64,000 nucleotides of DNA, from contig OW388290.1 in NCBI GenBank assembly GCA_936450465.1, forward strand, positions 28,447,457-28,511,456, in the 5' to 3' direction. How positions within the stretch are numbered: position 1 is the first letter of the stretch; each line of letters opens with the position of its first letter. The notes beneath the pieces were generated by a model. The model saw only the letters and a list, made by a program, of their open reading frames with translations, made no database searches and was not told the origin of the DNA. The translations under genes and the position numbers were made by a program. Origin of the DNA: Gibbula magus. Lineage: Eukaryota; Mollusca; Gastropoda; Trochida; Trochidae. Shown here piece after piece: positions 6,777 to 63,695 of this stretch.

Positions 6777-6815
6777 TTCCTGCAGTTTCTATCAAGACAG
6801 GATTATCCTTAGAGA
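6777..6815 (+). repeat. Dispersed low-copy repeat, partial copy 2
   Basis: Short fragment sharing CCTGCAGTTTCTATCAA and AGGATTAT with copies 1 and 3. Only about 40 bases are recognisable. Confidence 0.4.
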
Positions 6816-9090: not shown

Positions 9091-9096
9091 GCTATA

Positions 9097-22300: not shown

Positions 22301-22790
22301 AGGTACATCCATTGTGTTGTTGGGGGTCACATATTCCAAACGTTAATAATGGTGTTAGTTTATCGAGAAGTACCGACTGTTACCGAAAACTACCATTTTG
22401 ATGACAGTCGACTTAGTATATTGACAATATGAAGGTAAAAGTAGTGATTTCTGATCGAAAACCGGACAATGCATCGTGATTGACGCGCGCCAATGAGTCA
22501 AACGTAATTTTGGAATCTTATTTAAAGCAGTCAAAATAACAAATTTGGTGTGATCATGTTTAATATGTCATATACCTGATGTGCATGTAAATGGGACGTG
22601 CAGTTTAGGTTTCTGCGCATGCATAACGATGTTACTCGATTTTAATTGGAAACTAGTAATTGTGATATATTTGGCGATTGGGGATGAATATGCAAGTTGA
22701 ATGAACTTGTTTGTTCTGTAAACAGCACATATGGTGTGTTGGAATGTATTAAAGCCAAATAAAAGTTTTTGAAACACAATGGATGCACCT
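22301..22790 (+). mobile_element. TTAA-flanked MITE (piggyBac-like), copy 1
   Basis: Termini are AGGTACATCCATTGTGTT at the left and AACACAATGGATGCACCT at the right, an almost perfect inverted pair of about 18 bp. The element is 490 bp and bounded on both sides by TTAA (22,297-22,300 and 22,791-22,794). A TTAA target duplication is characteristic of piggyBac-superfamily transposition. It has no transposase frame and is non-autonomous. Internal landmarks shared with the 63-kb copy include CGAAAACCGGACAATGCA and AATGGGACGTGCAGTTT. It lies inside a block of about 1.1 kb (22,060-23,205) missing from copy B. Confidence 0.85.
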
Positions 22791-23110
22791 TTAAGTTTTG
22801 ATTACCTATATACAAATCAAAACGAAAGTTTCTGCTTGAACATAATGACCGTATTTCAGAAATGTTTACCAAGAGTTACTTATCTGTTCCTGTGTACATT
22901 CAATAAAAATAAAAGATTAAAACTTAATAAAATAAGTTCATTTTTACAGTAATAGTTTTCATTAACACATTTTCAATTTGACTTCAAATTAGATTTTCAT
23001 TCTAACTTGTCCAAAACTAATGTAGCTACAAATCAAACAAGCACATGCTGTGAATTAAGGACAAGTCATCCTGACTCATAGTAAGAGACTATCTAACAAG
23101 AACTGTAGCT

Positions 23111-23290
23111 TCAGTCTTCTTGCATAATTGTCATCACGAATGGGCCAACATGCAGAGGTTCTCCAAATAGCTCTGCGGTTAAACAGTTTTCAAACACATA
23201 GTTGTGCACAATGCATCGTTCTAAGCAGGTGACCCATCTCCATTCCGAGTCTCTGCAAGGAAGGCGCCACATGAATGCTACATCGTGTAT
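23111..23290 (-). other. Exon-like minus-strand open frame, function unknown
   Basis: On the minus strand, an acceptor-like CCTTCCTTGCAG at about 23,259-23,248 is followed by an open frame that reads roughly RDSEWRWVTCLERC, continues for about 35 residues, and stops at 23,111. The tryptophan/cysteine content looks more protein-like than most open frames here. Copy B lacks the AG at the equivalent site and has no downstream half, so a duplicated gene is not supported. I do not recognise the peptide; it may be chance. Confidence 0.15.
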
Positions 23291-23551
23291 GTTTTTAAGT
23301 GTTACATTAGCTTCTAAATGAGGTCTGTGGTGTATTTGCCCTATCAAATAGATATGATATATCAAAGTTTTCAAAGTGTGTTTTTGGATGGATAACATCA
23401 TGCATTAGAAATAAACATTGTATTTGCGAGCATTGGCGAGCTAATTAGTCTTTATTGTGAATGCAGGGTATTTACAATGGCAAATCATAAAATGTAATAA
23501 CCTTCATATTGGACATTGCCAGTTTATCAAAAGTGCATTAATATTAGTTTC

Positions 23552-23865
23552 GGGGACGGGATAGCGCAGTGGTTAGCGCGTTCGACTTCGGATCAAGAGG
23601 TCCCGGGTTCGAATCCCGCCAGGGGCACGGCAACTTTGTCTGCAGTAGAGAACTGTTCTACACGCAGTAAGGTTTGGGTGCACTGCCACACTGAATTTCA
23701 GAGTAGTACCACCCATGGTTCGCTAGTTCCAGCCGTTGCTCGCAGGTTTCACCGCAATGCATAGCCACATGGCGTTGCGGGCTTTTTCCTGCCGTAATAC
23801 TAGCAGCCGCGGTATAAGTGAAATACTCTTGAAATCGGCGTTAAACCCCAACTCACTCACCTCAC
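23552..23865 (+). mobile_element. tRNA-derived SINE with target-site duplication
   Basis: The 5' part is tRNA-like, with an A-box-like TAGCGCAGTGGTTAG near 23,562 and a perfect B box GGTTCGAATCC at 23,606-23,616. A non-tRNA body follows, ending in CGGCGTTAAACCCCAACTCA and CTCACCTCAC. The insertion is bracketed by a 14-bp duplication, TTAATATTAGTTTC (23,538-23,551 and 23,866-23,879). Copy B has no SINE at the matching position (about 50,460). The element is 314 bp. Internal pol III promoter boxes imply retroposition by a partner LINE. Tails of this CTCACTCAC type are common in gastropod repeats, which supports the host call. An authentic tRNA gene is unlikely because of the tail and the duplication. 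Confidence 0.92.
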
Positions 23866-24336
23866 TTAATATTAGTTTCAAAGTTGAAATTCCTTCAAAT
23901 GTGCACATTGATAAATTGAAATGAACAGAGATATTCTGTACGTTGTAATTGTTTTGTTGACATGACCTAAGTATTCACTTGTTGATGAATCAAAACACCT
24001 TGATTTTCTAATTTGAAATAGTTAACGTATCGAAGTTGAACATTGATAACGGCAAGGCGTACATTTCAATAGATGTTGTGAGGGTGAGTGTGATTTCTTG
24101 TTTAACACCACTTTAGCCATGTTGCAGCCATTAGGGGCAATATATTATAGTTAATTGCCTATTTCGTAAAATAATTGCAAAGGTAATCACAGAACGACAA
24201 AAAGGCTATGAAACAAAATAATGTTAGTTATTTGTCTTATATTACAAACTACATTTGTAATCATATCCACGATAACAGCAATCTCACCTAACGTTCGATA
24301 ATTATATTTTCATATCTTAAGGTTATCAAATTGCGG

Positions 24337-24695
24337 CAATGAGATTTAAACTGAACTAAATGTTTGCCCTGTTTTGAATACTGGTCTTGTTTGCATCTGT
24401 CAGTAACAATATGTTGACGAACAACAATAATATTCTATAACTCATATACATGAACATAAATTAGCATTATTCATGTTCTCAAACGATTACCATTAAATGT
24501 CGATGATCATCAATATAATCAAATGAGATTTAATCTGAATTTTATGTCCTGTTTTGACTTCTGGTCTTGTTCGTATGTGTCAGTAACAGTAAAAGCATAT
24601 AACTCACATACATGAACATACATAAGTATAATTCATGTTCGCACACGATTATCATTAAATGTCAATGATCAACACTATAATCAAATTAGTTCTAT
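24337..24695 (+). repeat. Tandem duplication of about 175-190 bp in copy A
   Basis: Two adjacent units share, in order, CAATGAGATTTAA/AATGAGATTTAATCTGAA, CCTGTTTTGA, TCTGGTCTTGTT, GTCAGTAACA, TAACTCA, ATACATGAACATA, AATTCATGTTC and CATTAAATGTC. Copy B has a single unit at 50,932-51,110 that is nearly identical to the second unit. The duplication therefore arose in copy A after the A/B split, or was lost from B. Confidence 0.85.
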
Positions 24696-27600
24696 TCGAA
24701 CAAAATACCAGTACACTTACATAATATCAACGCAATTATGCAATGGCAGGTATATTTACATTTCTATAATTGGATCTTTATCATAGCCTTACATATGTAC
24801 ATTTGTAATTACTGGGATAATGTTCATTCATTCACTTCTATCTAGATAGATCGAATAGATTTTCCCTGTTCCCTGTCCATTTACACTCAGACTTACAGGA
24901 GAATACACGCTGTCCGAAAGTAGTAAATCATCTACACGTGACTTGAAACATATTGCTTAACAGCATAAACAATAGGGAAAGTCTGGAAAGCTCGTTGATA
25001 GCTAGAGATACAACCCATTACAAATGAAAAAGAGGCTTCAAAGTAACCTTTGCAGAAGAGTTCCATATGTCAAATTGTCAATATCACATTCTACAAGCAT
25101 CTTATCATTATTGCTAATTCTTAATTATAAAACATGTATTGGTAACACAATTCCAAACCTGTGGATACGCTACCCTTATTTCATATTCAATGTTATACCT
25201 TTAAAGTTATTTATTGTGAAGATATTTTATATTATAAAAACTGCCTAAAAACAACAACATTAAACTAATTCATTGTAAAGCATATCAGTATTATTAAATG
25301 CAGGTCATTTTTGGAGGTATTTTTACACAAGGAGGCGTCTGTCCGAAAATGGAATGAATTAAGCTACATGTAAGCCTTGTACATGTATAATCATGGTAGT
25401 CGATTAGCCGATTTGTAGCCCTCTTTAACATTCTGATTTTATTTTAAATTTGGCTTTGTTCTTCGAAATTGTCGATGCTGACAGTTTTGCCTCTCTTGAA
25501 CAACCTAGATGATGACGTTGACTATGTCGAACAGGTGACCGCTGTATAGGGGTATATTTATATTAAAGTCATTTTGATTTTGTATTGTTGCGTCAAACAG
25601 GAGGTTGCTTCAAAGGAACTTTACATTGTGTATGTATTTTGTTAGTCAACTGCAGAGAAGTTAAGTCAGTTTCAAAAGTTTCATGTGGCATGTTCAGTTA
25701 CAATAAAATAGTTGGTCGTTTATTCTAATACAATGATTCATCAGTGTTCCAAAACTAATTAAAGATTATCTTCGTGAGTAAGACCTATAAATTTATTCAG
25801 AATATACGTAAATCATTTCACATGACTGGAAGCTCTTCTAGATGACTAGGGTGGGAGCATCGTAGACTTACCTGTGTCTGAGTCATGTGTCTTAATGTAC
25901 ATACTCTACTTTATATTGTCTATAGGTGTTTCGTTTATACTTATCAGTCTACTTATTCAGGAGATGCAACAGATTTTAGTAATAACGTACGCACTTATCA
26001 GTATATACATTAGGATAATGTAAAGTGTATATATAACTAAACATCGCGAGCTTGAACAAATTCTGCAAAAATATACATTCCAAAGAAGTTGTTTTGTTTT
26101 CAAATGTTATCAGAAATGCTTATATGTCTATTCAATAGTTCTTTTTTCATGTAAATAGTGTATAGATATTGGCAAGTTTGACATTATTCTTTGCAAGCGA
26201 CCATATTTGAAAAAACATCGTCATTTTATGTAATATTTTGAATGTTGTTCTAAAAACAAATCAGTACGAAAATGCCATACTTCTAGCATCTAAAGAATCG
26301 CTCACATTTCGCTCATGTATGATGCTGTGATTCACTTCACCAGTTTCTTGTTAGTTGTCACATTATACCTTTTCAAACGAATTTCATTAAGACATTAACG
26401 ATCAAGCTAAACATTCTGCCTTATTAACATATCAAATATGAGTAAAGCAAGGGTAAAAATTAGAAAAAAGGTCATGTAACTTCAGCTATTAATGAAAGTT
26501 CTCTGTAATGGGTTAAATGGTATCTTGACCTCATAAAAAATAATTCAAATTTGCATACACTCTTTATAGCACAAGAAAAATAGTTATGAATTGTAAAAGA
26601 GCATTTAAATAATCATGTTGTTAAAACAACAATCAGTACAGAGTGTAAGACTACATTAGGCTATGAAGTGTCATGTTTGAAATTATTTTTATTTACAGAA
26701 AGAAACATGCCCGTTTGTGTAGTCTTGTCATATTATAATCAATCTGTCAATGCAATTTTCATAAAATCTAGTAAATGAAACTGCTTTACTTTTAATTCGA
26801 AATTCTACCTAATTGGAAACATACATGAAAAACACACTAATTTCTCGGAGAAATATTCCAACAGCTGAAAGGAGACAATTTATTACCCTGAAACGCAGTA
26901 ATTTGTACAGTACATGTAATTGAATAAAACGATAACAAATTACTACAGGAGGATAGAGGGATTGCCTAACTTTCTTGAGAATCTAATCAAATCACAATAT
27001 GCAAAACAAGATGATAGTAACGACTGTTCACCATCTAAAAACGTTGTGGGGGTCCTCCGACTCTCCTCAATGAAATCTATTTTTATCTTGGGAGCAAGAA
27101 GCAGAACATTTCAATTTCCAAAGCTTACTTCACTCTACTCCACACAGATTTGCGAAGGAAGACATTTTGAGAACGAATTTTTGCATGGCACAATATCTGT
27201 ATTCTCTTTTACAAGTAAAGTGTACTGTTAAGCTTATGTAAAGGTAATGCATGCTGCATGGACACAAATATTGAATAATATCTGTTTTATATAAAGCTAG
27301 TAAATGAATATTTGACATTCTAAATGTTTCAGACACAACAATTATTTCATTTTTCAATCATTATTCATGTAATCTTAAATCACTTCTATTAATAGAATGC
27401 TATAAACTATAAACTACATTCAGCTTATGACAGGAATTTTAGTAGAAGTTGACAATAAAACTTAATTGCAAGAACATCCGGACAATGCAACTGATCTGAA
27501 GATGATACATACAGTCATTCTTATAGTTACAATGATCAATTCAACGTACAAACAAAACGATTATTGCTGAAAGTTAGTTGTCTGCCCTTTTAACCCTCAT

Positions 27601-29445
27601 CTTATTCAAACTTCAAAGTGGAATCTACAGTTAAATACCGCTGGTGAAATCAGCCCAAGGTGGAAGCATATATATATATATCACATAATCACATAGTTTA
27701 TTAAATTCAGTGGCAGATAGTCTGAGATAACGTTACTGAATGCATGTCTTTAACAACAAGAGTCAACCGAGTTTTCATGCGCATCATTATTGTTGAAATA
27801 TGGCACACGTCTCTCTCATAGCATGTCACACAGCCAAGTGTTCAGGACACATGTCTTTCCTACCGTATCATAAATGCCATAATTTGTCTCTATCCCATAC
27901 CTTGTCAAACATGACGCCAGCAAGAGATGACTGTGACATACATTTAGGATGTGTCCACAGCAGACATGTATATATATAGCATCCTCTTAAACCATTTATC
28001 AGACATAAACGAATCAGGAAGATCAGTAAATCGAATCTTCATGAATATCTCAATATATCTGCATTATATCTGTATCAGCTGATAAAAATATTGTTGTGTT
28101 TTTCGAATGTTTTCTGAATCCTGTTTATTTGTGGAATGCGTATTTTTAGTTATATCGACCCACATTGAATGGTTTTTTTTATATATATATATTATAGATT
28201 TGGTATGTATATTAAGTAAATCTGTACGTACAGGCATATCACACAAATAGACTAATTAATGTAAAAGTAAGTATAAAAATGACAACAAAAGTACATCACC
28301 AATTTTTTACATGTACATCGTAATGACAAGATACTAATTGTCTGAATGAAACGGGACCATAAATAATATAAATTTATAGAAAATTCATACAGGACAGACT
28401 GAAGATTGACCTTCATATTATTGACCAGTTTTACTATATGGTGGTCAATACATCTTACACACTGTGTTGCTACTCATATAATAGCATGTTCCAACCCGTA
28501 GTTACATGACTCTCTATTCGCGATATCCTGTTGAGTAATATCGTATTTGTTCGCACGCCTTGTCATTCTCAGCTGGAGCTCTGACAGACCAATTCAGTGT
28601 GCCCCGTCATTATTAAAAGCACCATACGCCATTATGTAAGTGATAATTGCCTCTAGGTCTTGTCTTGAGGTCCATTTTCTCATTAAATAATTTCATATTG
28701 AGTTCGTTCAGCAAGTATTAATTCTATGTGTAAGATCGTCCGGATTGTTACATAAGTGCAGACACATGTCAACATCTGGCGATTTGTATGGATCTGTCAA
28801 CAAGTATTAGTTCATTTCTTAAAAGTAAATATATTTGTTCACACTTCAGTTATAAAATGTGTATGTTATGTTTCTGGTTACCAACATAAATAATGTATTT
28901 ATCAATTCCCAAATCAGTTTTTAAGAATGATTTCATAACAACCCGTATTCTAACAGTGGATACATAGATAACTGAATTAGAACTTAGCTATCATTTCAAT
29001 TCAGTACCAAAAACATAAAATTCAACTTGGGTTTTAAAAAAGACAATTTAAAAGTTAATTTAATTCCAATATACACCACTGAATGTAAATAACCATTCTA
29101 TCATAACATTTTTTATATTTACCGTGGGATTGGACGTTGTGTTTGGGAAAATACATTGATGACCTTCCCATGCTATTATGTACTCTGTAATCATTATGTT
29201 CAAACACCTCCGTTAATAGTATAAACATACTCTTTATATATATATGCATATTCATGTTCACATGTTCTACATCACTAGCTTATTAACATAGTTATTATCC
29301 AACATTAAAGGTCGCATTGACAATTTCCATTGAAATAAACATTTCTATCTCATCGACCAATCAAATAAAATAGTTTTAGCTTTATATCGATATTAATGCA
29401 TTGGTTTGTAAATAAAGATATTATAAGTTGTATGCTTTTCACGTC

Positions 29446-31761: not shown

Positions 31762-33529
31762 TGAAGCTAGCTGTGTCACTTAATTTTAAAGAATAGGAAT
31801 AGATGTATCAATAGCATGAGTACTTAAACGAATATACATGGTTCGGTTAAGCCATGCGAGTCCATTTCCCATCGAGTAGCCGTTTTAATGTGCTCACATT
31901 TAAATGGTCGCTCCAAGATAATTCAAGTGGTCTGGCTGATGCAGCGATACTTAAACATTCAGAGTAGAGTTTTGAATATGGTACACTGATGGAATGGTCA
32001 ACTACCCCTGTCGCTTTATACGTTGCACCATTTTCTACCAACAGGGATAACCGTTTTCAATGGACGTGGCTGATCGGGTTGTCTAATCAGTTGTTTTACC
32101 AATTACCCATAACTATATATTGCATAAACTTAAATAATAAATGGCAAATTTGAGAAAACATAATTTCCAAAAAAACGTGTTACAGCGCGTTTAAAATATT
32201 TATTTTTACAGTTATTCAAGATAACAGAAACAGTTGAAACTTGTGAATTAAATATCATTGCCGCAAAATGGCATGTGACTTACACTTAAAACTGAGACCT
32301 ATAATGAGATTAGTTTTCGTACAATCTTAACACTAATGTTAGCCTTAGTGTCATTCTTTAACATGTTAATAAGGCTGTTTGAAGGCTACCTAAAGGATTC
32401 GCGTAACGGACCTAGAATATACAGGCACAGACATTATAAAGAGCAATATAGTTTCCATTATCAAATACATTGACATTAGATTCAAACACATCATCTCCTG
32501 TGCATGAAATGGAACATTGTTGAAGAGCAAAATCCATCAAATAAACAGCAAATACCGCCAGCGCCACGCTAATAGAGCTATATTACCTCACTGTTAGTAC
32601 AAATGTATCCACATAACACTATTTCAAAGGAAGCGATCATGTGCAGACAGTTATCGGACCTTTCAATCTAGGACTCGACGAATCTGCAGTTCAAAAGAAA
32701 TAACTGACTGGTCTCAATTTCAGATTCCTTTGATAGTGACAAACTATTAGTCTCAATGAGTAGCATCTGAAATATTTTAGTCAATGTTTCTGTTCAAGGT
32801 TTAGTGAGCTATGTCAAATAATACACATATTAAACTATCTTTAATACTGTGTATGTAATGTTCAATACTGAATCACTAGTCCAAAAGGATTAACAAAGAA
32901 TCTCATTAGGTACTCGATCTATCAACACGAGTCGATTGAAGTTTGAGAAGAATGTCATCAACATAATGGTGTCAAAGTATCGCCAACTGTGTAACATATC
33001 TAACATATTACCCCGGAAATTAATTGCAAATCCCGATGATTTAAATTTATTTTAACTTTGGCTAGTTTTGCTTAGTGCGCCTATTGCATTCACATATAAA
33101 ACGAATTTGTTATACAAATTATACAATTTGAATCTTAGTGAATGCTATTTATCTTATTTTGAAGTGCATTCATTAAATAATCCTTAAGCGGTATACTATA
33201 CATTTAGGCTAGTAAATTCGTTAATATTTAATGAATGATCACTGTAAACATTATCAATCAAGCATTTACCCGCCCAATTGATGTTATTAGGAAACCAATT
33301 GATATGAGATAGATCATTAATAGTATTATATTATCATTAAGATATGATTGTCACATGTCCACAGTGAAATAATGAAATAATGGGATATGTACATTTATGT
33401 ATTTCTGTTTCTTTATCTGGGTTATTAAATTTTTTACACTATTACACTATGCATTGAAAACCAAATCTGATCACATAACCTTTCGCAGTAATCATCAAGA
33501 GCGAATTAGTGTTTTACCAACACAGATAA

Positions 33530-36180: not shown

Positions 36181-36684
36181 AAACATGAATATTATGTGTT
36201 TTACCATTTAAAAACATTATATTCATTTACATGAAAAACATACAAGTGCGGTTAAGCAACTAGCAGATTACCACCAATTCAAACTTTCAATATACTATTA
36301 ACTCTATATTATTATCAACAAATATTGATAAAACTAACTATCATGAACACGGATTTGGGTTATTCATTTTAGCAGATATAGTGACAGGCAGATGGTTACT
36401 TACATATATGTGTCATCATCTATCTAAAAGGTTCAGCGAAATGAGTCTCCAATGTCTACCAGAAAAAGTGAGAATAATAATTGTGACTCTGATATCCAAT
36501 CTTCTCTCGTCGAGCAGCGTGTTCTATTGACAGATTTTGACAGTTGAATTCAAGAAAGAGAAATGTGTCGTCTGATTTGGTCAAATATAGCATCCAAAAG
36601 TGGAAATACGATTTTGAAAAATATGACAGAATTTGGGTGACTTTTCTATATGTGTATTGCGAACATGAATGCATATAAATGAAT

Positions 36685-49912: not shown

Positions 49913-51564
49913 GTTTACCCCAGGACTCATAATAATAGAGAGTCGCTCAATGAATCACCTCAAAAGGTCTCTCATTTTTGGAAGTCTGGAGGATGGAACA
50001 TAAGTTTAAAATATTTGTCATGGTCAGGGTTTTTAAAACTTCAATTTTAAATGTTTGAAATATAAGCGAAATCATTCATTTGTTTTTGCAGTTTTGCACA
50101 GTGCATCATTCCAAGCAGGTGACACGTCTTCATTCTGAGTCTCCACAGGAAGGCGCCACATGAATGCTACATCGTGTATGTTTATATTTATCTATGTGTT
50201 ACATTAGCTTGTTTGTGATGCTGCCCTATCAAACGGATATAATATATAGAAGTTGTCATAGGTATAGATATATAGAAGTTGTCATGTGAGTGTGTGTTTG
50301 GATGGATAACATCATGCATTCGAAACACATATTGTATTGCAATTGCGAGCATTGGCGAGCTAAATACATAGTGTTTATTCCTACTGCAGGGCATTTACCA
50401 TGACAAAACAAAAGCTTATAACCTTCATATTGGACGTGGTCAGTTTATCACAAATGCCCGAAAACATTAGTTATAAAGCTAACATTCATTCAAATGCGAG
50501 CATTTATCTATTGAAATGGATAGTGGGATAACTCTGCCTGTAAATGATGGTGTAAGTTGTAATTGTCATTTTAGCATGACCTTAGCTTTCGATGTTTGAT
50601 GTTTCAAAACATCTTGATTTTCTAATTTAAAAATAGGTAACATATCGAACGTGAACATTGATAAAGGCAAGGTGTATATGTCCATAGATGTTATGAGAGA
50701 GAGTGTCTTCTTGTTTAACACCACGTTGGAAATATTGCTGCCATAAGGGGCAATATATCATATTTAATTGCCTTGTTGATGCAATAATTGCAAAAGCAAT
50801 CAAAGAACGACACAAAATAATGTTAGTTATTTGTCTTATATTACAAACTACATTTGTAATCATAGCAATGATTACAGCAATCTCATCTAACATTCGACAA
50901 TAATTTTCATATCTTAAGGTTATCAAGTTGCGGCAATGAGATTTAATCTGAATTTTATGTCCTGTTTTGACTTCTGGTCTTGTTCGTATGTGTCAGTAAC
51001 AGTAATAGCATACAACTCACATACATGTACATACATAAGTATAATTCATGTTCGCAAACGATTATCATTAAATGTCAATGATCAACACTATAATCAAATT
51101 AGTTCTATTCGAACAAAATACCAGTACACTTACATAATATCAACGCAATTATGTAAGTTAACTGCAAAGTAATGTTAATGGCAGGTCTATTTACATTTCT
51201 AAAATTGGATCTTTATCATAGCCTTACAAATGTACATTTGTTATTACTGGGGGAATATTCATTCATTCACTTGTAGATAGATCGAGGACATTTTCACCGA
51301 CTGACAGGAGAATACATTTTCGCTCCGAAAGTAGTAAATCCTTTATACATGCCTTGAAACATGGTGCTTAACAGCATAAACAATAGGGAAAGTCTGGTCA
51401 CCTCGTTGGTAACTAGAGATACAACCCATTACAAATGAAAAAGAGGCTTCAAAGTAACCTTTGCAGAAAGAGTTCCATATGTCAAGTGTCATTATCACAT
51501 TTAATCGTTTCATTCCACAAGCATCTTATCATTATTGCTATGTCTTAATTATAAAACATTATTA

Positions 51565-51702
51565 GTTACACGGTGTTTTGACAGGGTGTACGGGACTGTA
51601 AGACCCTTGTATATTACGTATTTTCCTGAGGCGCAGCCGAAGGAAATGCGGAATAAACAAGGGTCTTAGAGTCCCGTACACCCTGTCAAAACACCGTGTA
51701 AC
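51565..51702. mobile_element. Hairpin element with 46-bp inverted arms
   Basis: The left arm 51,565-51,610 starts GTTACACGGTGTTTTGACAG. The right arm 51,657-51,702 is its reverse complement with one mismatch. The 46-base loop has its own small stem, TTTCCT ... AGGAAA, around GAGGCGCAGCCGA. Copy A lacks it at about 25,145. Design and loop style match the hairpin at 33,981-34,084, although the arm sequences are unrelated. About 240 bp to its right (51,703-51,940) also has no counterpart in copy A and may belong to the same insertion. Confidence 0.88.
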
Positions 51703-52405: not shown

Positions 52406-52413
52406 GGTTCTCT
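52406..52413. repeat. Left 8-bp target duplication of the composite element
   Basis: GGTTCTCT here matches AGTTCTCT at 56,550-56,557 except for the first base. The unoccupied site in copy A (26,497-26,504) reads AGTTCTCT. Confidence 0.8.
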
Positions 52414-52457
52414 ATGGAAGCGCATTGCTGCCACCAGTGAGAAAAAATTACACAACG

Positions 52458-52964
52458 TCTAATTAGATGATAGTTTCATCTAATTAAAAGATAGTTTTAT
52501 CTAATTAGAGTATAGCTTAATCTAATTAGATGATAGTTTTATCTAATTAGACGATAGTTTCATCTAATTAGATGATAGTTTCATCTAATTAGACGATAGT
52601 TTCATCTAATGAAGTATTTTTTTAAATGTCTAATTAGATGATAGTTTCATCTAATTAGATGATACTTCGTATAATTAGACGATACTTAAGGTCTAAGTAG
52701 ATGATACTTTCGTCTAATTAGATGATACCTTCGTCTAATTAGATGATACTTTCGTTTAATTAGATGATACTTTCGTCTAATTAGATGATACTTTCGTCTA
52801 ATTAGATGATACTTTCGTTTAATTAGATGATATTTTCATCTAATTAGATGATACTTTCGTCTTCTTAGATGATACCTTCGTCTAATTAGATGATACTTTC
52901 GTTTAATTAAATGATACTTTCGTCTAATTAGATGATACTTTCGTCTAATTAGATGATACTTTTG
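52458..52964 (+). repeat. Left 21-bp minisatellite array of the foldback arm
   Basis: About 24 units of TCTAATTAGATGATACTTTC plus a final G or A. Outer units have GATAGTTTCA or GATAGTTTTA and inner units GATACTTTCG. An irregular spacer, TCTAATGAAGTATTTTTTTA plus AATG, interrupts the array at about 52,605-52,628. Each unit contains the palindrome TCTAATTAGA, whose TAATTA core is the classic homeodomain-type sequence. Confidence 0.95.
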
Positions 52965-53489
52965 TCCTTAAGGGCCTCCGGGTCCGCTGCCTCCTCGCGT
53001 GTTTCTCACAACCTTACGCGTCGTGTCACGTTGGTGTCGCCCACCCGTGATTCCTCGCCAGACTCGGCGGAGCATGACGCCCGCTTCATTGACCTGTAAG
53101 ACCCTCCGTTCATCAATATAGTATTGAATGTGGAGGGTATGGGGTTGTCGGAGGATCCGCCGGTTGTCGACTCATTCGCCATGCTGTCGGAGGTTTGCCT
53201 CGTTGGCAGAGGTACCACTCAGTCAGGTCAGGGTGTCGGGACCTCGTTCATCGGGAGCCAGGAAGGCTTCCTTTTGTCCTGAAGGCAACTTAGTTCCCAC
53301 GCGTCTCGCCCTTCCACCGCATAGGCTCCTGCTGGACGCCTCCGAGGATATGGAGCAGGTCATCTCGGATGCGGTCCTAAACCGTCTGCTTCCACCATTA
53401 GTGGTGTCGGATAAGCGCCGGCGTCAATTGTCTTTGTTACGGACTCCTTTTCAACTCGTCCCACCTGCTCTTGATCAGGGTGCGTCTCG
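52965..53489 (+). repeat. Left inner arm: inverted copy of DIRS gag 5' region
   Basis: About 525 bp from CCTTAAGGGCCTCCGGGTCC to GGGTGCGTCTCG, matching 55,494-56,018 in reverse complement. It is much richer in G+C than the genome around it. The plus-strand frame inside it repeats the gag-like stretch PPHRLLLDASEDMEQVI. At 53,489/53,490 it abuts the truncated end of the tyrosine recombinase. This arm is therefore an inverted duplicate of the element's gag end, not the native right terminus of a DIRS element. Confidence 0.85.
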
Positions 53490-54290
53490 CCAAAAACACC
53501 CCGCCATGACGTCCGAAATCGCGATGTTGTAGCGGTAAGCCATCGTGGCTGAAACTGCACGGATCTCATGAGGGTTGGAACGCGAAGGAGGAGGCAGGTC
53601 AGTGGTCTTGTACACATCAATGACCGCCGACCTCAGGTATACCCCCAACGCTCGCTTACCTAGCTCCTTGGTGCTCCTCGGCGATTGAAGCAAGAACAGA
53701 CGACGCCTGCCATCTCTCAGCCTGCGGGTACGCTGCACGTTCCAACTTCAAGGCCCTCACCAGACACAGAGAGAGATCCACCTGTCCTGAGTCAGAACCC
53801 AGAGCTGGAATAGAGAAAGTACGGCCAGCCTCATCAGTTGCCTGGTTTTTGCAGACAAAGTCGGGAGCTAAACCAAGTAAGGCTGATACCCCTTCCTGAC
53901 CTCAAAGCGTAGAAGGTCCGCATGGATCTCGGAAATGCGAGCTGCGGAGGTCAAGGCCACCAGAAAAATGACCTTGATAGTGAGAGGGCTACGTCAGAGA
54001 GCGGTTCATACGTATCGGAGCGAAGATGGTTGAGCACAATTGCTAAGTTCCACTCAGGAGGACGAAGCTTCGTCCTGCCGTCCACAGAACGGAAGGTTTT
54101 GACGAGGCCCTTGAGGACCGACACATCTAACCCTTGCGACCTCTTCCTGAGAACGGGGAGGACAGCAGACATGTTGGTATTAATTGATGACACCTTAAGA
54201 TGCCTGGTGTTGCGTAGGTACACTAAGTACTCCGCCACCTGAGGGATTGAGGCCTCTGCCGGGATGAAATCCCTCTGAGCACAGAAGGAG
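53490..54290 (-). pseudogene. DIRS-like tyrosine recombinase, truncated and frameshifted
   Basis: On the minus strand, the N-terminal SAM-like part reads VAEYLVYLRNTRHLKVSSIN, then LKGLVKTFR and PPEWNLAIVLNHLRS (54,238-53,951 frame). After a frameshift comes TSAARISEIHADL (53,952-53,920), with the first catalytic arginine. After further breaks come TRRLRDGRRRLFLLQSP and NPHEIRAVSATMAY, with the H-x-x-R pair at 53,570-53,559. The sequence reaches SDVMAG-FWR and is cut at 53,490 by the foldback arm, just before the expected catalytic tyrosine. In DIRS elements this enzyme inserts the circular DNA product. Missing tyrosine plus at least three frame breaks make it inactive. Confidence 0.88.
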
Positions 54291-54377
54291 GCGAAGGCCT
54301 GCCACTGAAAATCCTAGTTGTCTTCCTATGAGAGGTAGCTATGGCATCGGCGACACATCTTGAGTACCCACTACTCC

Positions 54378-54965
54378 TTAGCCCTCTTTTAATACAAGCC
54401 AAGCGTGAACACCTGAGGGTTCTCGTGTAACCTTCCGCTTGGCCTGCTGAGGAGCAGATCTCTCCGTGGCTGAATCGGAACAGGTTCCTGATGATAGAGC
54501 CGCCGGAGAGGAACAAACCACGGTTGGGCTGGCCACCAAGGGGCGACCAGAAGAAGACGAAGAACCCAAGTTGTCCATATCTTGGCTACAACTTGGGAGA
54601 GGATGGCCGGCGGCTAAAAAGAATTGGCGTCCATCCCCTCCCGTCCTAACGAGAGCGCGTCTAAGCCATAGGTTGAGACATAGGTTGGCAATTGGTGATT
54701 GGGACATGTCGCAAACAGGTCTATTAGAGGGGTGCCAAACTTTAGACACAACCCCCTGAAGACCACCAGATTCAGTTGCCACTCCGTGGACTAGCAGACA
54801 CTGGCCTCGCAAGGGGGTCTGCCAGTGATGAATGGCTAGATGTGTTGGTTCTGATCTGACCAGACTCCCGCCACCTGCTCGTGACCCATATGCGCCCCCC
54901 ACACCTGGATGGAGGCGTCTACAAACAGGTGAGCTGAGGGGGGACGAGGGCGAAGTGGAACCCCA
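54378..54965 (-). pseudogene. DIRS-like RNase H and downstream linker remnant
   Basis: On the minus strand, LFVDASIQVWGAHMGHEQVA (about 54,927-54,868) is the RNase H start seen in DIRS-type polyproteins, with the first catalytic aspartate in LFVDAS. WSDQNQHI and, after stops, EWQLNLVVFRGLCLKFGTPL and IDLFATCPNHQLPTYVS follow, matching the usual DIRS order. Several stops (for example TAG right after QNQHI) break the frame. The upstream RT palm that should precede GVPLRPRPPSAHLFVDAS is missing, so the gag tail joins the RNase H region directly near 54,965. An uninterrupted 174-codon frame on this strand (54,902-54,378) is a shifted frame and not the protein. Confidence 0.82.
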
Positions 54966-55855
54966 GAGAACAAACTCTCACCGGGGACTGACCTGAGGAT
55001 CCACGGCCACGTCCTCCCCGCCGAAAGTCCGTCTTGGCTTTCGTGGGGGAAGGTTGGCCTCTGCCGTGACTTTGACCCTGACGGAAATTAGTCAGAGGAC
55101 GCTTAGGCGTAGTCTGCCTCTGACTCACCAGACGATTGGTGAGGTCTTGCTATTGAGCCTCTTTCCGCGCCCTCAGAACCTCGGGGATACGACCCCCAAA
55201 AAGAGGTTCAGAGTGGGCAGGGGCCTGCCGGAGGAAGGATTCCTGATCGGGGTTGAGACCTGAACGGTGAAGGAAATGGTCTCTACGAAGTACTGTAATG
55301 CCTGATGAAATCCGCGAAGCTGATAACATGATCTGCTCTTTGAAAAGCACCGGGTCACCCGACTTCATGCCAGCCTGCTTGGAACAGGCAAGCATTTCCT
55401 GACAGGTGAATGCCACGTTGTTGCCCAACCCTAACACTGTGCGAGCCTCTCTGTCGAGATGCGTAAGCTGCGCATCAGTAATGGGAAATCAACCGAGACG
55501 CACCCTGATCAAGAGCAGTCAGGACGAGTTGAAAAGGAGTCGGGTACAAAGGCAATTGACGCCGGCACTTATCCGACACCACTAATGGCGGAAGCAGACA
55601 GTTTGGGACCGCAGCCAAGATGACCTGCTCCATATCCTCAGAGGCGTCCAGCAGGAGCCTATGCGGTGGAAGGGCGAAACGCACGGGAGCTAAGTCGCCT
55701 TCAGGACAAAAGGAAGTCTTCCTTGCTGCCGATGAACGAGGTCCTGACACGCTAACCTGACTGAGTGGTACCTCCGCCAAAGAGGCAAACCTCCGACAGC
55801 ATGGCAACTGAGTCGACAACCGGCAGATCCTCCGACAACCCCATACCCTCCGCAT
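54966..55855 (-). pseudogene. DIRS-like gag (ORF1) remnant
   Basis: On the minus strand, the N-terminal part (55,855-55,475 frame) includes PPHRLLLDASEDMEQVI, LLPPLVVSDKCRRQL and TPFQLVLTALDQGASR. A frameshift near 55,480 leads to LTHLDREARTVLGLGNNVAF, ending in PLFGGRIPEVLRARKEAQ at 55,153. A TAG at 55,152-55,150 is followed in the same frame by QDLTNRLVSQRQ and an R/G-rich tail with FRRGGRGRGSSGQ. This arrangement, an acidic or helical body, an LFGG-type motif, then a basic RG-rich nucleic-acid-binding tail, is typical of DIRS ORF1. One frameshift and one stop disable it. Its 5' half lies within the right arm and is duplicated in the left arm. Confidence 0.82.
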
Positions 55856-56018
55856 CCAATACTATATTGATGAACAGAGGGTCTGATACCTCAATGAAGC
55901 GGGCGTCACGCTCCGCCGAGTCTGGCGAGGAATCACGGGTGGGCTACACCACCGTGACACGACGCATAGGGGTGTGAGAAACACGTGAGGAGGCAGCGGA
56001 CCTGGAGGCCCTTAAGGA
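55494..56018 (-). repeat. Right inner arm: DIRS gag 5' region
   Basis: Reverse-complement partner of 52,965-53,489. It is continuous with the gag-like frame in the core, so this is the original end and the left arm is the duplicate. The boundary with the core is at CGAGACG (55,494-55,500). Confidence 0.85.
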
Positions 56019-56504
56019 CGAAAGTATCATCTAATTAGACGAAAGTATCATCTAAATAGACGAAAGTATCATCTTATTAGACGAAATTATCATCTAATTA
56101 GACGAAAGTATCATCTAATTAGACGAAAGTATCATCTAATTAGACGAAAGTATCATCTAATTAGACGAAAGTATCATCTAATTAGACGAAAGTATCATCT
56201 AATTAGACGAAAGTATCATCTAATTAGACGAAGGTATCATCTAATTAGACGAAAGTATCATCTACTTAGACCTAAAGTATCGTCTAATTATACGAAGTAT
56301 CATCTAATTAGATGAAACTATCATCTAATTAGACATTTAAAAAAATACTTCATTAGATGAAACTATCGTCTAATTAGATGAAACTATCATCTAATTAGAT
56401 GAAACTATCGTCTAATTAGATAAAACTATCATCTAATTAGATTAAGCTATCCTCTAATTAGATAAAACTATCTTTTAATTAGATGAAACTATCATTTAAT
56501 TAGA
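56019..56504 (-). repeat. Right 21-bp minisatellite array of the foldback arm
   Basis: About 23 units of the same 21-bp sequence, in reverse orientation (CGAAAGTATCATCTAATTAG plus A). The irregular AAAAAAATACTTCATTAGA spacer sits at the mirror position (about 56,337-56,357). The mirrored inner GATACTTTCG and outer GATAGTTTCA variant types show the arms were copied whole and not amplified independently. Confidence 0.95.
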
Positions 56505-56549
56505 CGTTGTGTAATTTTTTTCTCACTGCTGGCAGCAATGCGCTTCCAT

Positions 56550-56557
56550 AGTTCTCT
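56550..56557. repeat. Right 8-bp target duplication of the composite element
   Basis: AGTTCTCT, followed by GTAATGG exactly as in the empty site of copy A (26,497-26,511). Confidence 0.8.
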
Positions 56558-59500
56558 GTAATGGTTTAAATGGTATCTTGACCTCATAACAAATAATTCA
56601 AAGATTTGCGTACACGCTTTATAGCACTTCAGAGAAAAAGATATGAATAATAAAAGAGCATTTGAAAAATCATTGAATTGTTAACACAACAATCAGTACA
56701 GAGTGTTAGACTGCGTTAGGCTATGAAGTGTCATGTTTGAAATTCTTATTATTTTCAGAAAGAAACATGCCCGTTTGTGTAGTCTTGTAATATTATTATC
56801 ATTCTGTCAATGCAATTTTCATAAAATCTAGTAAATGAAACTGCTTTACTTTTAAGGTGAAATTCTATCTAATTGGAAACATACATGAAAAACACACTTA
56901 TTTTCTCGGAGAAATATTCCTACAGCTGAAAGGAGACAATTTATTACCCTGAAACGTAATAATTTCGAAGTAATTGAATAAAACGATAATAAATTACTAA
57001 AGGAGGAAAGAGGGATTGCCTAACTTTATTGAGAATCTAATCAAATCACAATATGCAAAACAAGATGATAGTAACGACTGTTCACCATATAAAAACGTTG
57101 TGGGGTCCCTCGACTCTACTCAATGAAATCTATTTTTGTCTTGGGAGCAAGAAGCAGAACATTTCAATTTCCAACGATTACTTCACTCTACTCCAAACAG
57201 ATTTGCGAAGGCAGACATTTTGAGAACGAATTTTAAACCTTCATATTAACTGACTCAATATCTGCATTCTCTTCTACAGGTAAAGTGTACTGTTAAGCTT
57301 ATGTAAAGGTAATGCATGCTGCATGGACACAAATATTGAATAATGTCTGTTTTGTATAAAGCTAGTGAATGTATCTTGGACATTCTAAATGTTTGAGACA
57401 CAACAATTATTTCATTTTTGTCTTTATTCATGTAACCTTAAACCAATTGTATTAACAGAATGCAATATCCTATATTAATAAACATTCAGCTGAAAACAGG
57501 AACATTAGTAGAAGTTGACAAAAGGACTTAATTGCAAGAAAACCCGGACAGTGCAACTGATATGAATATGATACACCAGTCATTCTAATAGTTATAATAA
57601 TAAATTCAAAGTAAAAACAAAACGATTATTGCTGAAAGTTAGTTGTCTGCCCTTTAGAACCTTATCGTATTCAAATTGAAAGTTGAATCTACAGTTAGAT
57701 ACCGCTGGTGAAATCAGGTAATAAATATCAAACAATCAACAACAATCTACAGTTATTTATTCCAGTTTATGTATGTACAGTTCATAAAGTACAAGGAATA
57801 ATATGTATATGTGGGACATTGTTGAAGAGCAAAAGACTTTAAACAACCAGAAAATCTCACCAGCATCATGCTTATAGAACTGTGTTGCCTCATTGTTAGT
57901 ACTAATGCATCCACATCACAATATTTCAAAGGAAACGATCATGTGCAGACAGTTATCGGACTTGTCAATCTAGCACTCGACGAATCTACTGTTCCAAAGA
58001 AATAACTGACTGCTTTCAATTTCACTTTCCTTTGATAGTGACAACATGTACAACAACTATTAGTCTCAATGAGTAGCATCTGAAAGTTTTAGAACATGTT
58101 TTCTGGTAAAGGTTAAGAGACTTAGATATATGCCACATAATACACATCTTTTATGATCTTTAAAAATGTTATATAATGTTCTAAACTGAATCAATAGTAC
58201 AAAAGGATAAACTGAGAATCTCATTAGGTACCAGATCTATCAAAACGAGTCGAAGTTTGAGAGGAATGTCTATATTTTCTGAATAGGTTTTGGTCTATTT
58301 GATGCCAAACGTTAGAATGAAAGCGTATTGTTTCATTCAAATGTTACTTGCAGCAGTTATCATTCTGAAAATGGGCTACTTTAGCATTGATCTCAGTGAC
58401 GTCATAACATAATGACATCATAGCATTGTGATATGATCCATGTAATGGTGTCAAAGTATTGCCAACCGTGAAACATATCCAACATATGGCTCCGAACATC
58501 AACTGCAAGATCCTGATGTGTTATATTATGTTTAACTTTGACCACTTTTTTCTTAGTGCACCTATTGTATTCTCATATAAACGAATTTGAAATTATACAA
58601 TTTGAATGCCATTTATCTTATTTTAGAGTGTATTCATAAAATAATCCTAAAGCGGTATACTGTTTATGTAGGCTATCGAAATTAATTAACATTAAATGAC
58701 TGTCCACCGTTAAAATTATCAATCAAGCATTTACCCAGCGTATTGATATCCTTAGGAACCAATCGACATGAGAGAGATCCTTAATACCCGTGTTATGCAT
58801 AAAATTGTCACATGTCTACTGTCTACTGTCTCCGAGTGAGAGAACAGCTCCGCTGAAAATCGCTCGTAAAATCCCCGTAATCATCATCACTGTGAAATAA
58901 TGAACTAAGTAATCATCAAGAGCGAATTAGTGTTTTACCCATAAATATTATGTATGTGTTTTCCAGTAATTCAAATCTGATGGCTGACACTTCAATCACA
59001 TCAGTTTCATCAGATGTTCGCTGTGAGTCCACTCAGACCGTTATTTCTACTTTAGAGAGTCATTACTTTTTTCACATTATTTATTTGTTAATGTGAACAC
59101 GTTCTTAAGATAATTTATTCATGATTGAAATACATGTTTTTCTCTTATCTTTACACAATTTATCTTTTCATGAAACAATTGTTTTGCATTGAAACATTTA
59201 TTGATTAATTGACATAAATACAAAACGTGTTCATGAGTCACATATCCGTACCAATCGGATGAGCTTTTCTTCTAAAATCACATTGGAATATTAGAAGTAC
59301 ATGAGAGTCACGATTTCAGATAACGGGAATATGTGAGCATTTGAGGACAATGATGAAGAGCGTGCATAACCTTTAAACTATCCCGCCCTTTGTTAGTTTA
59401 TATTAAGCATAACTAACTGCATGCTGTATATCTTTCATATATCATTTGAATGGTTTTGTACCTGGGAAAATATGTTTCTGTACATTTGAGGATGTTGGAT

Positions 59501-60926
59501 AATAATTCCTTTCGGTCAGTAGTTTACGTCGTCATAGAATATATGTCGTTTTTTTGTTCAATTAAACATAAATGTCCATGAAAGCTGAATATCAAAATCT
59601 GGATCTCAAAAGCCAAAAGTCAAGGTGTTTTCATAGAATGTTTTTTGGTGTAAAAATCATTTTATTTCAGTTGGACACTTATGTTAGTACATTAACATGA
59701 ACATGAAGTGGTTTGCCATTATTATGCAACTCATTCATTTACATAACACACACACAAGTGTGATTCAGCATCTGGCACACTTATTCAAACGTTTAATATA
59801 CTATGACTATTGGATGTTTGTTTTACAAAAGGATAAAACCAAATATTATGGACACGGATTTGGGTAATTAGATTTTTGCAGATAGGTGACAGACAGATAG
59901 TTACTGGTTTAAATCATATCTCATCTATCTAAAAGGTTCTATGAAATGAATCTCCAGTGTCTCCCAGACAATAGGAGAATAATAATTGTAAATGAGACTA
60001 ATCTTCTCACGTAGAGCACCACGGAATACATTCAAGGACCACCTGCAATGAGTATAGTCTATTGACGGCTATGGAAAATTGATTTCAAGAGAGAGAAATT
60101 TGTCGTCTGATTTGGTCTAATATATCTTTCAAAAATAGGAATGCAAATTTGAAATATATGACAGTTTGTTGCAATTGGTGATTTGTTCATAGATCTGTAA
60201 CGAACAAGAATTCATGTGCATTCAATAATTAATTTGGCTATACGATCTTTCCAAACCTGTCTGTTTCTTTTATTATAATATGATACCAACAAATACAGGT
60301 TTCAGACAAGTGATTATTTTAAAAATTGTAAAGATATATTTTCAAAGCAATTCATGCGATTATCAATCCGTAATACAAGAGTAATTTTTTCTTTTAATAT
60401 TCTTGAAAAAAAAGTAAGTATGAAGTTTGACTTATAAGCAATTTGTCAAAAGATGGCGCAAATCTCAGATTATCTTCCAATTCAAAAAAACATTTAGAGC
60501 TGATGATTGATACTTCAATCACTCTTCTTCGAGCAGGCGCTGCTCAGGATTCCTGCCAGTATTGTCACCAAGTGGCTTGATAATATTTAAGTCAAGGTCC
60601 AGCGTGTGTCTTCTGACTTCCAATATTCATACAATGTACCTCCATACTAACACAATCGTGATTGATTGAATTCTCTTTTAACGAACATGAACTGTCAGTT
60701 ACCTCTACCGCGGTTGCTCGTAATAAGTCTTTACATATAACAATATGACAAACAATAAGGGGTGAACATGCTAAAGATCTCTACTTTTTATTACAACGAT
60801 GTATTCAGTAGGTAGTTGTCTTTGTTCGCATTCTAAAAGCAAAGTCAATAAACTATGTATTTTAAAATCAATAGTCATTTTGCATGTTTGTCTTTTGATG
60901 GAAGAAGTAAAATGTGTTTCAATTAA

Positions 60927-61310
60927 AGATACATCCATTGTGTTTCATAAAATAGTTTTTGGCTGAAATACGTGCCAACATACACTTTGTGCTGATTTCA
61001 GTTCAAATAATTTGACTCAACTTGCATATTCATCCCCAATAGCCAATCATAATACTAGGTTTTAATTATAATTGAGCAACATCATTATACATGTACACGT
61101 ACAGAAACCGAAACTACACGTCCCATGTACATGCACAGTAGTTATAAAACCTTTCTAACACTGTCAACCCAAAGTTATCTGTTTGTATGGTGATAATAAG
61201 TTTCCAAAATTACGTTTGACCAATTGACCCCCGCCACACGTGGTACATTGTCCGGTTTTCGATCAAAATTCGATACTTTGACCTTTATATCGTCACTAAA
61301 CTTTCGGTTT
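60927..61310 (-). mobile_element. TTAA MITE family, inverted and degraded copy
   Basis: Starts after TTAA (60,923-60,926) with AGATACATCCATTGTGTTTC, the family's right end in reverse. Family landmarks follow in reverse order: TGCATATTCATCCCCAATAG, ACGTCCCATGTACATGCACA, CCAAAATTACGTTTGACC and ATTGTCCGGTTTTCGATC. Similarity fades at about 61,310 and the other terminus is not recognisable. More diverged than the 22-kb and 63-kb copies. Confidence 0.75.
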
Positions 61311-61724
61311 GTTACATTTTTCACAAGCAGTTCAGAAGAAATGACAAAGTAAACTAACAACTAACTGACGAATAAACTAAATATCTCTAGTGCGAACTAT
61401 AAGGAAGCATCAATTTAACCGTCTTCATACTATAACCACCACGTCTCCATGCTATAACCATCACGCTCTCTATTTCAACAATGGTAACACTGCTTTTTAA
61501 GGACATCATGGAATGTGTCTGCCAAATAGATTTCCATTTCAGACTGATTCACACAATGGTCACATGTCAGATATTATATGGAGGATTGACATAGCTTTTA
61601 TAAACAACTCTGTAATGGCTGAATTGAAAAACGTGTCTTCTCTAGTTTGACTTTGATAAACGAGAAATGATAATAACACTCTTTTTTAATGACTTATTGT
61701 ATCAAATAGTATATGATTTAAATC

Positions 61725-61774
61725 ATTCATTTGAATTCATTTGAATTCATTTGAATTCATTTGAATTCATTTGA
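61725..61774 (+). repeat. 10-bp tandem repeat, five units
   Basis: Five perfect consecutive copies of ATTCATTTGA. Confidence 0.95.
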
Positions 61775-62900: not shown

Positions 62901-63191
62901 TTGTGAATTGCATCCAGAATTTTGTTTTTAATATTTTTTTATTAACTTCATTTGGATACAGTCAAGATACAGGTGCATTCACTGATGGGGCTGGACATAT
63001 TGTTCTTTTTCATCCAGAATTGTTCTATAGGTCTCATTTTGGTTAAAGTTCAAGGTATTGCATTCTTGTTCGGTACCAAGGTATTCCACGACCAAATTTA
63101 CAGTCCTTGCAAACTGTGCAACATGCAATCAGGCAATATCCTAGTTTCCGAAAATTTCACAGGTTTTTTTGGCCAAGCGTTAAATTCTTAA

Positions 63192-63691
63192 AGGTACATC
63201 CATTGTGTTGTTGGGGGTCACATATTGCAAACTTTATAAATGGTGTTACTTTATCGAGAAGTGCCGACTGTTACCGAAAACTATCATTTTGATGATAGTA
63301 GACTTAGCATATTGACGATATGAAGGTAAAAGTAGTGATTTATGATCGAAAACCGGACAATGCACAGCGTGTGGCGCGCGCCAAAGAGTCAAACGTAATT
63401 TTGGAATCTTATTTATAACAGACAAAAAGACAATTTTGAGTTGATAATGTTTAATAGGTCACATAACTACTGTGCATGTAAATGGGACGTGCAGTTTCGG
63501 CTTCTGCACATGCATAATGATGTAACTCAATTTTGATTGGAAACTAATAATTATGATATATTTGGCGATTTGGGATAAATATGCAAGCTGAGATAATTTA
63601 TTTGTATTGTAGACATCACATGTGGTGAGTTGGAACATATGAAAGCAAAATTAAATTATGAAATTAATTATGAAACACAATGGATGTACCT
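63192..63691 (+). mobile_element. TTAA MITE (piggyBac-like), copy at 63 kb
   Basis: Same family and orientation as 22,301-22,790. It begins AGGTACATCCATTGTGTTGT and ends AACACAATGGATGTACCT, with TTAA at 63,188-63,191 and 63,692-63,695. It is 500 bp. Well aligned internally (TTATCGAGAAGT, CGAAAACCGGACAATGCA, AAATGGGACGTGCAGTTT), with a small ATTAATTATGAA duplication near the right end. Non-autonomous. Confidence 0.88.
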
Positions 63692-63695
63692 TTAA

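Follow-up and report, generated by a model that had tools for sequence, protein, structure and literature searches.

How does a piece of a retroelement come to lie between the inverted arms of a cut-and-paste transposon, and which of the two has been responsible for its spread? The question is raised by a 4,138-bp element at positions 52413–56550 of a 64,000-nucleotide stretch of the Gibbula magus genome, the whole of which is referred to here as the window.

Anatomy of the Window Element

The element begins and ends with TATGGAAGCGCATTGCTGCCA, a 21-bp inverted terminus that is perfect once the terminal T is counted (Table 1). A preliminary description of this DNA had recognized perfect 20-bp termini, and these stand, although its boundaries (52414–56549; 4,136 bp) left out the terminal T/A. 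The 8-bp target duplication that it reported proves to be 6 bp, GTTCTC; with those boundaries, the 8-bp repeats (GGTTCTCT and AGTTCTCT) mismatch at one base. The empty site that it placed at 26,497–26,504 does exist, with its extent corrected to 26498–26503.

The inverted arms measure 1,077 and 1,057 bp and are 92.0% identical, in keeping with the ~1.06 kb first estimated, and the mirrored 21-bp minisatellites noticed at the outset were likewise found, with 24.2 and 23.2 copies of the unit. Long, tandem-repeat inverted arms around a variable middle are the structural hallmark of a foldback element, and that is the structure present here.

Table 1. Features of the window element and its target sites (window coordinates).
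Feature	Position	Strand	Remarks
Target duplication GTTCTC, left copy, 6 bp	52407..52412		
Left terminus TATGGAAGCGCATTGCTGCCA	52413..52433	+	220 genome matches of the 20-mer, ≤2 mismatches; control 0
Left minisatellite arm, 21-bp unit, 24.2 copies	52456..52966	+	
Inner left arm, inverted DIRS gag-side end, joining the minisatellite at CGTC	52967..53489	+	gag by position
DIRS stretch behind RNase H, with tyrosine-recombinase remnants, frames broken	53490..54785	-	
188-bp deletion junction	54785..54786		common to 18/18 aligned cargo copies
RNase H remnant of the DIRS fragment	54786..54982	-	domain placed via native relatives
~0.8–1.1-kb deletion junction, reverse transcriptase lost	54980..54984		in 18/18 aligned cargo copies
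Gag-side DIRS remnant	54983..55493	-	gag by position
Inner right arm, DIRS gag-side end, inverted repeat of 52967–53489	55494..56016	-	
Right minisatellite arm, 21-bp unit, 23.2 copies	56017..56506	-	
Right terminus TGGCAGCAATGCGCTTCCATA	56530..56550	-	
Target duplication GTTCTC, right copy, 6 bp	56551..56556		
Unoccupied paralogous site, single GTTCTC	26498..26503		

Copies in the Genome

A whole-genome search with the terminal 20-mer, allowing up to two mismatches, returned 108 forward and 112 reverse matches, and since a reversed-pattern control returned none, the terminus is not a chance sequence. As the first 100 of the 220 terminus matches were listed individually, and 40 of 297 first-look candidates were scored with the arm query, all copy counts given here are lower bounds. 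The arm query was used to sample 28 places, and at 20 of them, the window element included, the minisatellite arms are joined to the DIRS-derived part, which supports the early reading that a cut-and-paste foldback moved DIRS cargo.

All 19 of the two-ended cargo copies are flanked by exact duplications, which are 6 bp long in 18 copies and 7 bp long in the remaining one, so that the 8-bp duplications anticipated for every copy did not materialize. Among all two-ended elements, with or without cargo, the duplication is exactly 6 bp in 24/29, exactly 7 bp in 1/29, imperfect in 3/29 (L024, L027, and L034), and lacking in 1/29 (L040); these counts omit three elements whose second end is missing (L010, L014, and L035) and a neighbor inside L009 that starts outside the stretch. 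The flanks of the 19 cargo copies are unrelated to one another, barring neighboring family members and a single 159-bp pair located apart from the insertions.

The contents of the family vary: TATGGAAG termini and 21-bp arms enclose short loops, a transposase, or the DIRS fragment. No DIRS sequence accompanies these termini and arms in the seven short foldbacks that were read (0.75–1.4 kb), in L040 and L043, or in the transposase-bearing L044. One loop is common to six of the seven short foldbacks and is found again next to a right terminus that lies ~5.4 kb downstream from the transposase of the C3 copy. The sizes of 22 short pairs are known, and a minority of these pairs were read. The alternative floated in the preliminary description, that a DIRS copy became a foldback, is not supported, given these DIRS-free relatives and the nature of the cargo, which is an internal DIRS fragment devoid of ends.

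The DIRS-Derived Cargo

The minus-strand core was initially described as DIRS gag, RNase H, and tyrosine recombinase. Its DIRS derivation and strand hold, while gag is assigned by position only, and Pfam returned no profile match for the gag pieces of either the window element or the native DIRS locus L036. Within the window element, only the N-terminal domain of the tyrosine recombinase matches Pfam, and weakly so (E 0.0018, below the cut-off); the RNase H piece gave no usable Pfam match and was recognized through native DIRS relatives. In the native loci L036 and L037, reverse transcriptase, RNase H, and tyrosine recombinase domains were all detected, and a protein search with a piece of a native recombinase returned five relatives. 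The cargo does not retain this domain set, as its reverse transcriptase region is deleted in 18/18 aligned copies.

Both deletions are present in all 18 of the aligned cargo copies and in neither of two native DIRS loci, and the 18 copies fall into one clade within native DIRS with support of 100/99 (bootstrap not fully settled); L010 and L013 were too short for this core alignment. The cargo is a single DIRS capture that was already deleted and then spread. It is 92–94% identical to the two native DIRS cores over aligned bases, gaps not counted, while the cores of the youngest cargo copies are 99.3–99.8% identical. A further locus, L053, was first taken as native DIRS and is a cargo-copy fragment (99.1% to L031).

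Neither the inverted ends nor the internal complementary region of DIRS was found in the window element or in 19 other cargo places (E 1e-3), and both are present in native L036. Because the ends are absent, the recombinase of DIRS does not explain the mobility of the cargo, and it was rejected as the mover on this ground and on that of the exact duplications at cargo copies; according to PMC3266345, DIRS insertion makes no target duplication. When the core (positions 75–1290) was compared with the window copy, 10/11 indels in L019 and 11/12 in L021 were not multiples of three. With its frames broken and its indels ignoring codon phase, the cargo is a passenger.

Two opposed gag-side copies lie within one element; they are ~91–92% identical to each other in window-type copies and ~86% identical to native DIRS. 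The arm/gag join lies at the same DIRS start position on both arms in most copies of all subfamilies, and it is this shared join, rather than the weak deep branches of the gag-side arm tree, that places arm duplication before the subfamily split. In that tree (36 rows, leaving out L023 and with one arm only from L010, L013, and L031), the gag-side halves from each subfamily group in clades of their own. The two arms have diverged separately rather than being kept alike, and arm-to-arm homogenization was accordingly rejected as the cause of arm similarity.

The Transposase and Its Superfamily

The window element itself has no transposase. One family member, L044 (6,833 bp; duplication GATTGG), has the same termini and arms around an integrase-type transposase, and the rva_4 domain (Pfam PF24764) was detected both there (E 9.9e-19) and in the C3 copy (E 2.3e-17). 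A DD35E spacing was counted by eye, and no HHCC motif was seen by eye upstream of the core in the L039 and L042 pieces. All 29 two-ended elements have TA..TA termini, with one or two inner mismatches in L016, L019, L020, and others, a uniformity partly set by the search because the ends were located via their match to the window terminus. IS3EU elements are described in PMC10045372 as having TA..TA ends and usually 6-bp duplications. Taken together, the ends, duplication length, and Pfam domain fit a probable IS3EU/GingerRoot type. Another source, PMC8268682, lists oyster satellites labeled IS3EU.

An intact family transposase was not found among the 101/101 candidates scored: three pieces at 97–100% lie in two elements and have broken frames, and the next relatives are at 64–65%. 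The recent spread of the young copies therefore needs a source other than these broken genes. Treating L045 and L060 as one element is an assumption, with ~2.3 kb between them unread, and a left end for this copy was not found. In L044, the arms run into the element's own transposase gene (94% over 1,144 bp).

Origin of the Element

The window element is very probably a non-autonomous foldback of the IS3EU/GingerRoot type, which took up a dead piece of DIRS through repair and was then amplified in trans. An IS3EU transposase supplied in trans would cut at the TA..TA ends and insert the element where the target is cut with a 6-bp stagger. A broken element may have acquired the DIRS piece while being repaired by end-joining or template switching; arm and DIRS sequence overlap by 4 bp (CGTC) where they meet. 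The minisatellite and gag end would then have been copied onto the other end to give longer arms. The capture and arm-copying steps were read from the junctions by eye.

A different route to the same structure, judged unlikely, is that a whole DIRS was inserted by its own recombinase into an existing foldback, and that deletions afterwards removed its two ends. Arm-free DIRS pieces are common in the genome (40 of 2,989 candidates scored), which makes such an insertion plausible, and deletions of 188 bp and ~1 kb did occur in the cargo; against this, the 20 cargo places yielded neither DIRS end, the arm/gag join starts from one and the same DIRS position in the two arms of most copies across all subfamilies, and none of the cargo places showed an intermediate that had kept a DIRS end.

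In maize, a hairpin transcript of Mu killer leads to silencing of MuDR through small RNAs. There is a slim chance that the family's foldback arms repeatedly grow by copying the neighbor of one end onto the other, and that the resulting loci are putative trans-silencing hairpins. Such growth would have made long inverted repeats of retroelement gag in the window family and of the transposon's own gene in L044. If so, the hairpin loci could silence native DIRS and the family's own transposase, which would account for broken transposase copies alongside abundant non-autonomous ones. About as slim is the chance that the cargo itself is not passive, with transcripts of the 0.5-kb inverted gag-arm hairpin feeding small-RNA silencing of native DIRS. 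Two gag-side copies that match native DIRS do face each other in one element, and a second family member has arms extending into its own transposase gene, whereas the arms diverge separately instead of being kept alike.

That the element is a foldback like FB, belonging to the MULE or hAT superfamily and making an 8–9-bp duplication, is very improbable. The long tandem-repeat arms do give the element a generally FB-like anatomy, and foldbacks are mostly regarded as Mutator-like (PMC4079207). The mover suggested earlier was of the hAT or MULE type, and its exclusion rests on duplication length and transposase type: the exact 6-bp duplications in 24/29 copies match neither the 8–10 bp of FB/MULE nor the 8 bp of hAT, and the transposase between the same ends is of the integrase-like rva_4 type. 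Finally, repetitive arms are a known assembly hazard, and an assembly artefact or local rearrangement can be dismissed as next to impossible given 20 joined places on many contigs, 19 of them two-ended with their own duplications and distinct flanks.

Comparison with Known Systems

The sea-urchin element TU is counted among the foldbacks. Like IS3EU/GingerRoot elements, the family has TA..TA ends, mostly 6-bp duplications (PMC10045372), and an integrase-like DDE transposase in one of its members; unlike them, the window element lacks a transposase, its foldback arms contain minisatellites, and it carries a piece captured from a retroelement. Drosophila FB and Tetris share the long inverted arms, internal tandem repeats, and variable middle (PMC4079207), whereas the window family has 6-bp duplications rather than the 8–10 bp of Tetris, an integrase-type mover, and a middle derived from a retroelement. 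In contrast to DIRS1-like elements, the window element has target duplications and neither DIRS ends nor a reverse transcriptase. Pack-MULEs and Pack-CACTAs (Pack-TYPE elements) are likewise non-autonomous class II carriers of captured DNA (PMC8616336), although those described are from plants and carry host gene pieces, while here a retrotransposon piece was captured and partly copied into both arms. In Teratorn, a piggyBac-like composite, a DNA transposon is likewise joined to an unrelated element, albeit in a giant of 180 kb, whereas the window cargo is a short, dead fragment. A foldback combined with DIRS was not described among the matches listed (titles and abstract openings; few subscription journals; Repbase outside the scope), nor did the terminus letters occur in the literature searched, which likewise included few subscription journals.

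Significance

The element is a new case of a mobile element that rides within another, in which a class I piece has been spread as a unit by a class II foldback. The documentation comprises copies and their target duplications, the relative order in which the events took place, and a candidate for the mover. The case also adds an IS3EU-type example to the foldbacks, the majority of which are regarded as Mutator-like. Moreover, the existence of two members whose arms have taken in different sequences makes both arm growth and a possible role in silencing testable.

Structure of the element and its target site

The foldback transposon of the window begins with TATGGAAGCGCATTGCTGCCA and closes with the exact reverse complement, as the perfect inverted outer termini of the preliminary description would have it. 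Each end is followed inward by a minisatellite built of 21-bp units (24.2 copies on one side, 23.2 on the other), and the inverted arms, 1,077 and 1,057 bp long, are 92.0% identical. While this structure holds as a whole, its ends, formerly put at 52414..56549, have been corrected, and with them the supposed 8-bp target duplication becomes a 6-bp match, 6 bp also being usual in other copies. When the flanks are joined with a single GTTCTC, they align across the insertion point to an unoccupied paralogous site, with gaps further left, and the empty site once placed at 26,497-26,504 is retained at a shorter, 6-bp position.

Coordinates of the window element and related features
Feature	Position	Length	Remarks
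Window element	52413-56550	4,138 bp	
Target duplication	52407-52412 and 56551-56556	6 bp	GTTCTC
Unoccupied paralogous site	26498-26503		
L044 element (transposase-bearing, no DIRS cargo)	2803-9635	6,833 bp	ends and minisatellite arms as in the window element; exact duplication GATTGG
L036 (native DIRS)	about 1560-6394		inverted ends; end repeats inside recombinase side

Window stretches 23200-27653, 32510-33322, and 36221-36516 are collinear with 50090-51571 and 56550-60018 (76-89% alike), which suggests an old duplication of the region, only one copy of which would have received the element. A dispersed repeat of ~500 bp occurs at 22284-22795, 63185-63695, and, in reverse, 60923-61302, as well as inside the L044 element and in four stretches matched by the arm query (L012, L014, L027, L034). 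The window also has two neighbouring short tandem repeats, at 61420-61470 and 61725-61774 (22-bp and 10-bp units).

Family size and separate insertions

Across the genome searched (1.47 Gb, 140 contigs), the 20-base terminus has 108 forward and 112 reverse matches at two or fewer mismatches, and a reversed-terminus control pattern has none. The first 100 of these 220 matches form at least 32 plus/minus terminus pairs, 22 of them 0.4-1.6 kb in size and seven of 4.07-4.21 kb, with single pairs of 2.3, 3.5, and 6.8 kb. Scoring the best 40 of 297 candidates found with the arm query gave 28 places including that of the window (the other 27 being L009-L035), and arms and a DIRS piece occur together in 20 of the 28, bearing out the proposed joining of the two across genome copies in this sample.

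Two-ended elements number 29, comprising 26 from the arm-query set and three family members without DIRS cargo (L040, L043, L044). Rather than the 8-bp duplications anticipated in all copies, 24 have exact duplications of 6 bp, one of 7 bp, and three imperfect ones. A 633-bp family member at L040:1396-2028, situated between open pieces resembling, by eye, a non-LTR reverse transcriptase, is alone among the two-ended copies examined in having no duplication that can be recognised. The duplication is exact in every one of the 19 cargo copies with both ends (6 bp in 18, 7 bp in L017). Their 1-kb flanks share no similarity above 150 bp, save where L009 and L021 have family members as neighbours and in one 159-bp stretch that does not adjoin the insertions. 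Judged from these private duplications and unrelated flanks, the cargo copies are separate insertions.

Identity and history of the DIRS cargo

The native DIRS locus L036 resembles DIRS1-like elements, as these are described in PMC3266345, in its inverted ends and the repeats of those ends within the recombinase side. Against Pfam, open pieces of L036 and a second native locus, L037, match RVT_1 (4.5e-7, above its cut-off), with RT_RNaseH (1.1e-4) and Phage_int_SAM_4 (2.2e-5) just under theirs; the gag piece, which has no profile match, owes its name to its position. The window core, previously read as gag, RNase H, and recombinase, does match native DIRS, with gag so named by position only and 188 bp missing in RNase H relative to L036, to which it aligns from inside one DIRS end to inside the other. 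A second deletion, including the reverse transcriptase, amounts to roughly 0.8 kb (versus L036) or 1.1 kb (versus L037). The gag-side DIRS end occurs twice, inverted, with one copy per arm, and the 20 places with cargo yielded neither DIRS end.

Both deletions are present in all 18 aligned cargo copies and in neither L036 nor L037. Native pieces compared at the RNase H deletion numbered 15 (L036, L037, and 13 of L046-L059); nine are readable on both sides, and all nine retain about 100-200 bp there. In a tree of core positions 1-1300, whose bootstrap was not fully settled, the 18 cargo copies group together in a single clade (100/99) among native DIRS. L053, seemingly a native intruder in that clade, is a piece of a cargo copy: it contains the junction between gag copy and recombinase side that is peculiar to the cargo. 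In G000, at C10:74683556-74687777, three DIRS-like pieces that match the window core at 83% and are spaced 1,458 bp look like a tandem array built from a DIRS fragment.

Gaps not counted, window-type cores (the window element, L009, L011, L012, L015) are 99.3-99.8% identical, a middle group stands at about 97.5% (L016-L018) and 95.4% (L031), and members of a third (L019-L023, L025, L028-L030) share 98.2-99.3% identity with one another and 94-95% with window-type. Third-group members lack the initial 71 bp of the window-type core, and their inverted copy reaches 63 bp deeper into the core. Left and right gag-side arms of each subfamily fall in separate clades, which radiate with native DIRS almost from a single point; on this tree, capture, inverted copying, and subfamily split are placed close in time, the arms having diverged independently since. 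Indels relative to the window element over core 75-1290 are mostly out of codon phase (10 of 11 in L019, 11 of 12 in L021), so the cargo looks like a passenger.

By eye, the arm/DIRS join of the window copy has CGTC common to minisatellite and DIRS, the inner join shares CG, the RNase H deletion junction shares GT, and a few additional bases lie at the second deletion; such junctions would be accounted for by end-joining or template-switching repair. The identical arm/gag join on both sides, in turn, suggests that one element end was copied onto the other, and the foldback at breaks by which inverted duplications form, as described in PMC11724301, is a possible route. L044 has reached the same arm-growth outcome with different material, its arms running into its own transposase gene (inverted piece 94% over 1,144 bp).

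The transposase and the type of mover

The minus strand of the L027 loop resembles, by eye, the start of a transposase, and a search with it led to 12 places. The middle piece of the L044 transposase matches the Pfam integrase core rva_4 (9.9e-19), as does a piece of a second transposase-bearing copy, C3 (L045; 2.3e-17). The acidic D, D, and E appear, by eye, within HMDSYD, RADKGTE, and RIERMW, the second and third being separated by 35 residues, and a later open piece (5138-5587) is presumably the remainder of the protein, lying beyond an intron. Three transposase pieces at 97-100% exist in the genome, in two elements and with broken frames; the next relatives, at 64-65%, have open frames. 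The relative to be looked for between the same termini, with a hAT- or MULE-type transposase, is represented by L044, whose enzyme is of integrase type and in broken frames. The loop common to all but one of the seven short foldbacks read also adjoins a right terminus (L060) that lies ~5.4 kb downstream of the C3 transposase, and if C3 and L060 are taken as one element, the short foldbacks would descend from a transposase-bearing form.

Comparison with known systems

In PMC10045372, complete IS3EU elements are described as ending in TA..TA and as duplicating, usually, 6 bp of the target; for GingerRoot the duplication is 6 bp and the ends are mostly TA..TA. By its ends, duplication, and mover, the window element is assigned to the IS3EU/GingerRoot type; the core of the earlier interpretation, that a foldback moved DIRS cargo, stands, and its family assignment does not. 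The element is like foldback elements in anatomy and like Pack-TYPE capture, as treated in PMC8616336, in cargo. Foldbacks may come from different lineages through transposase loss and end lengthening, and most seem Mutator-like, in the account of PMC4079207. Among the matches listed by a literature search lying mostly outside subscription journals and outside Repbase, no IS3EU foldback was described, nor, in the same scope, any DNA transposon that mobilised part of a DIRS element. The family, a variant of kinds already known, is a clear example, with many copies and a mover of defined type, in which a mobile element of one class carries another.
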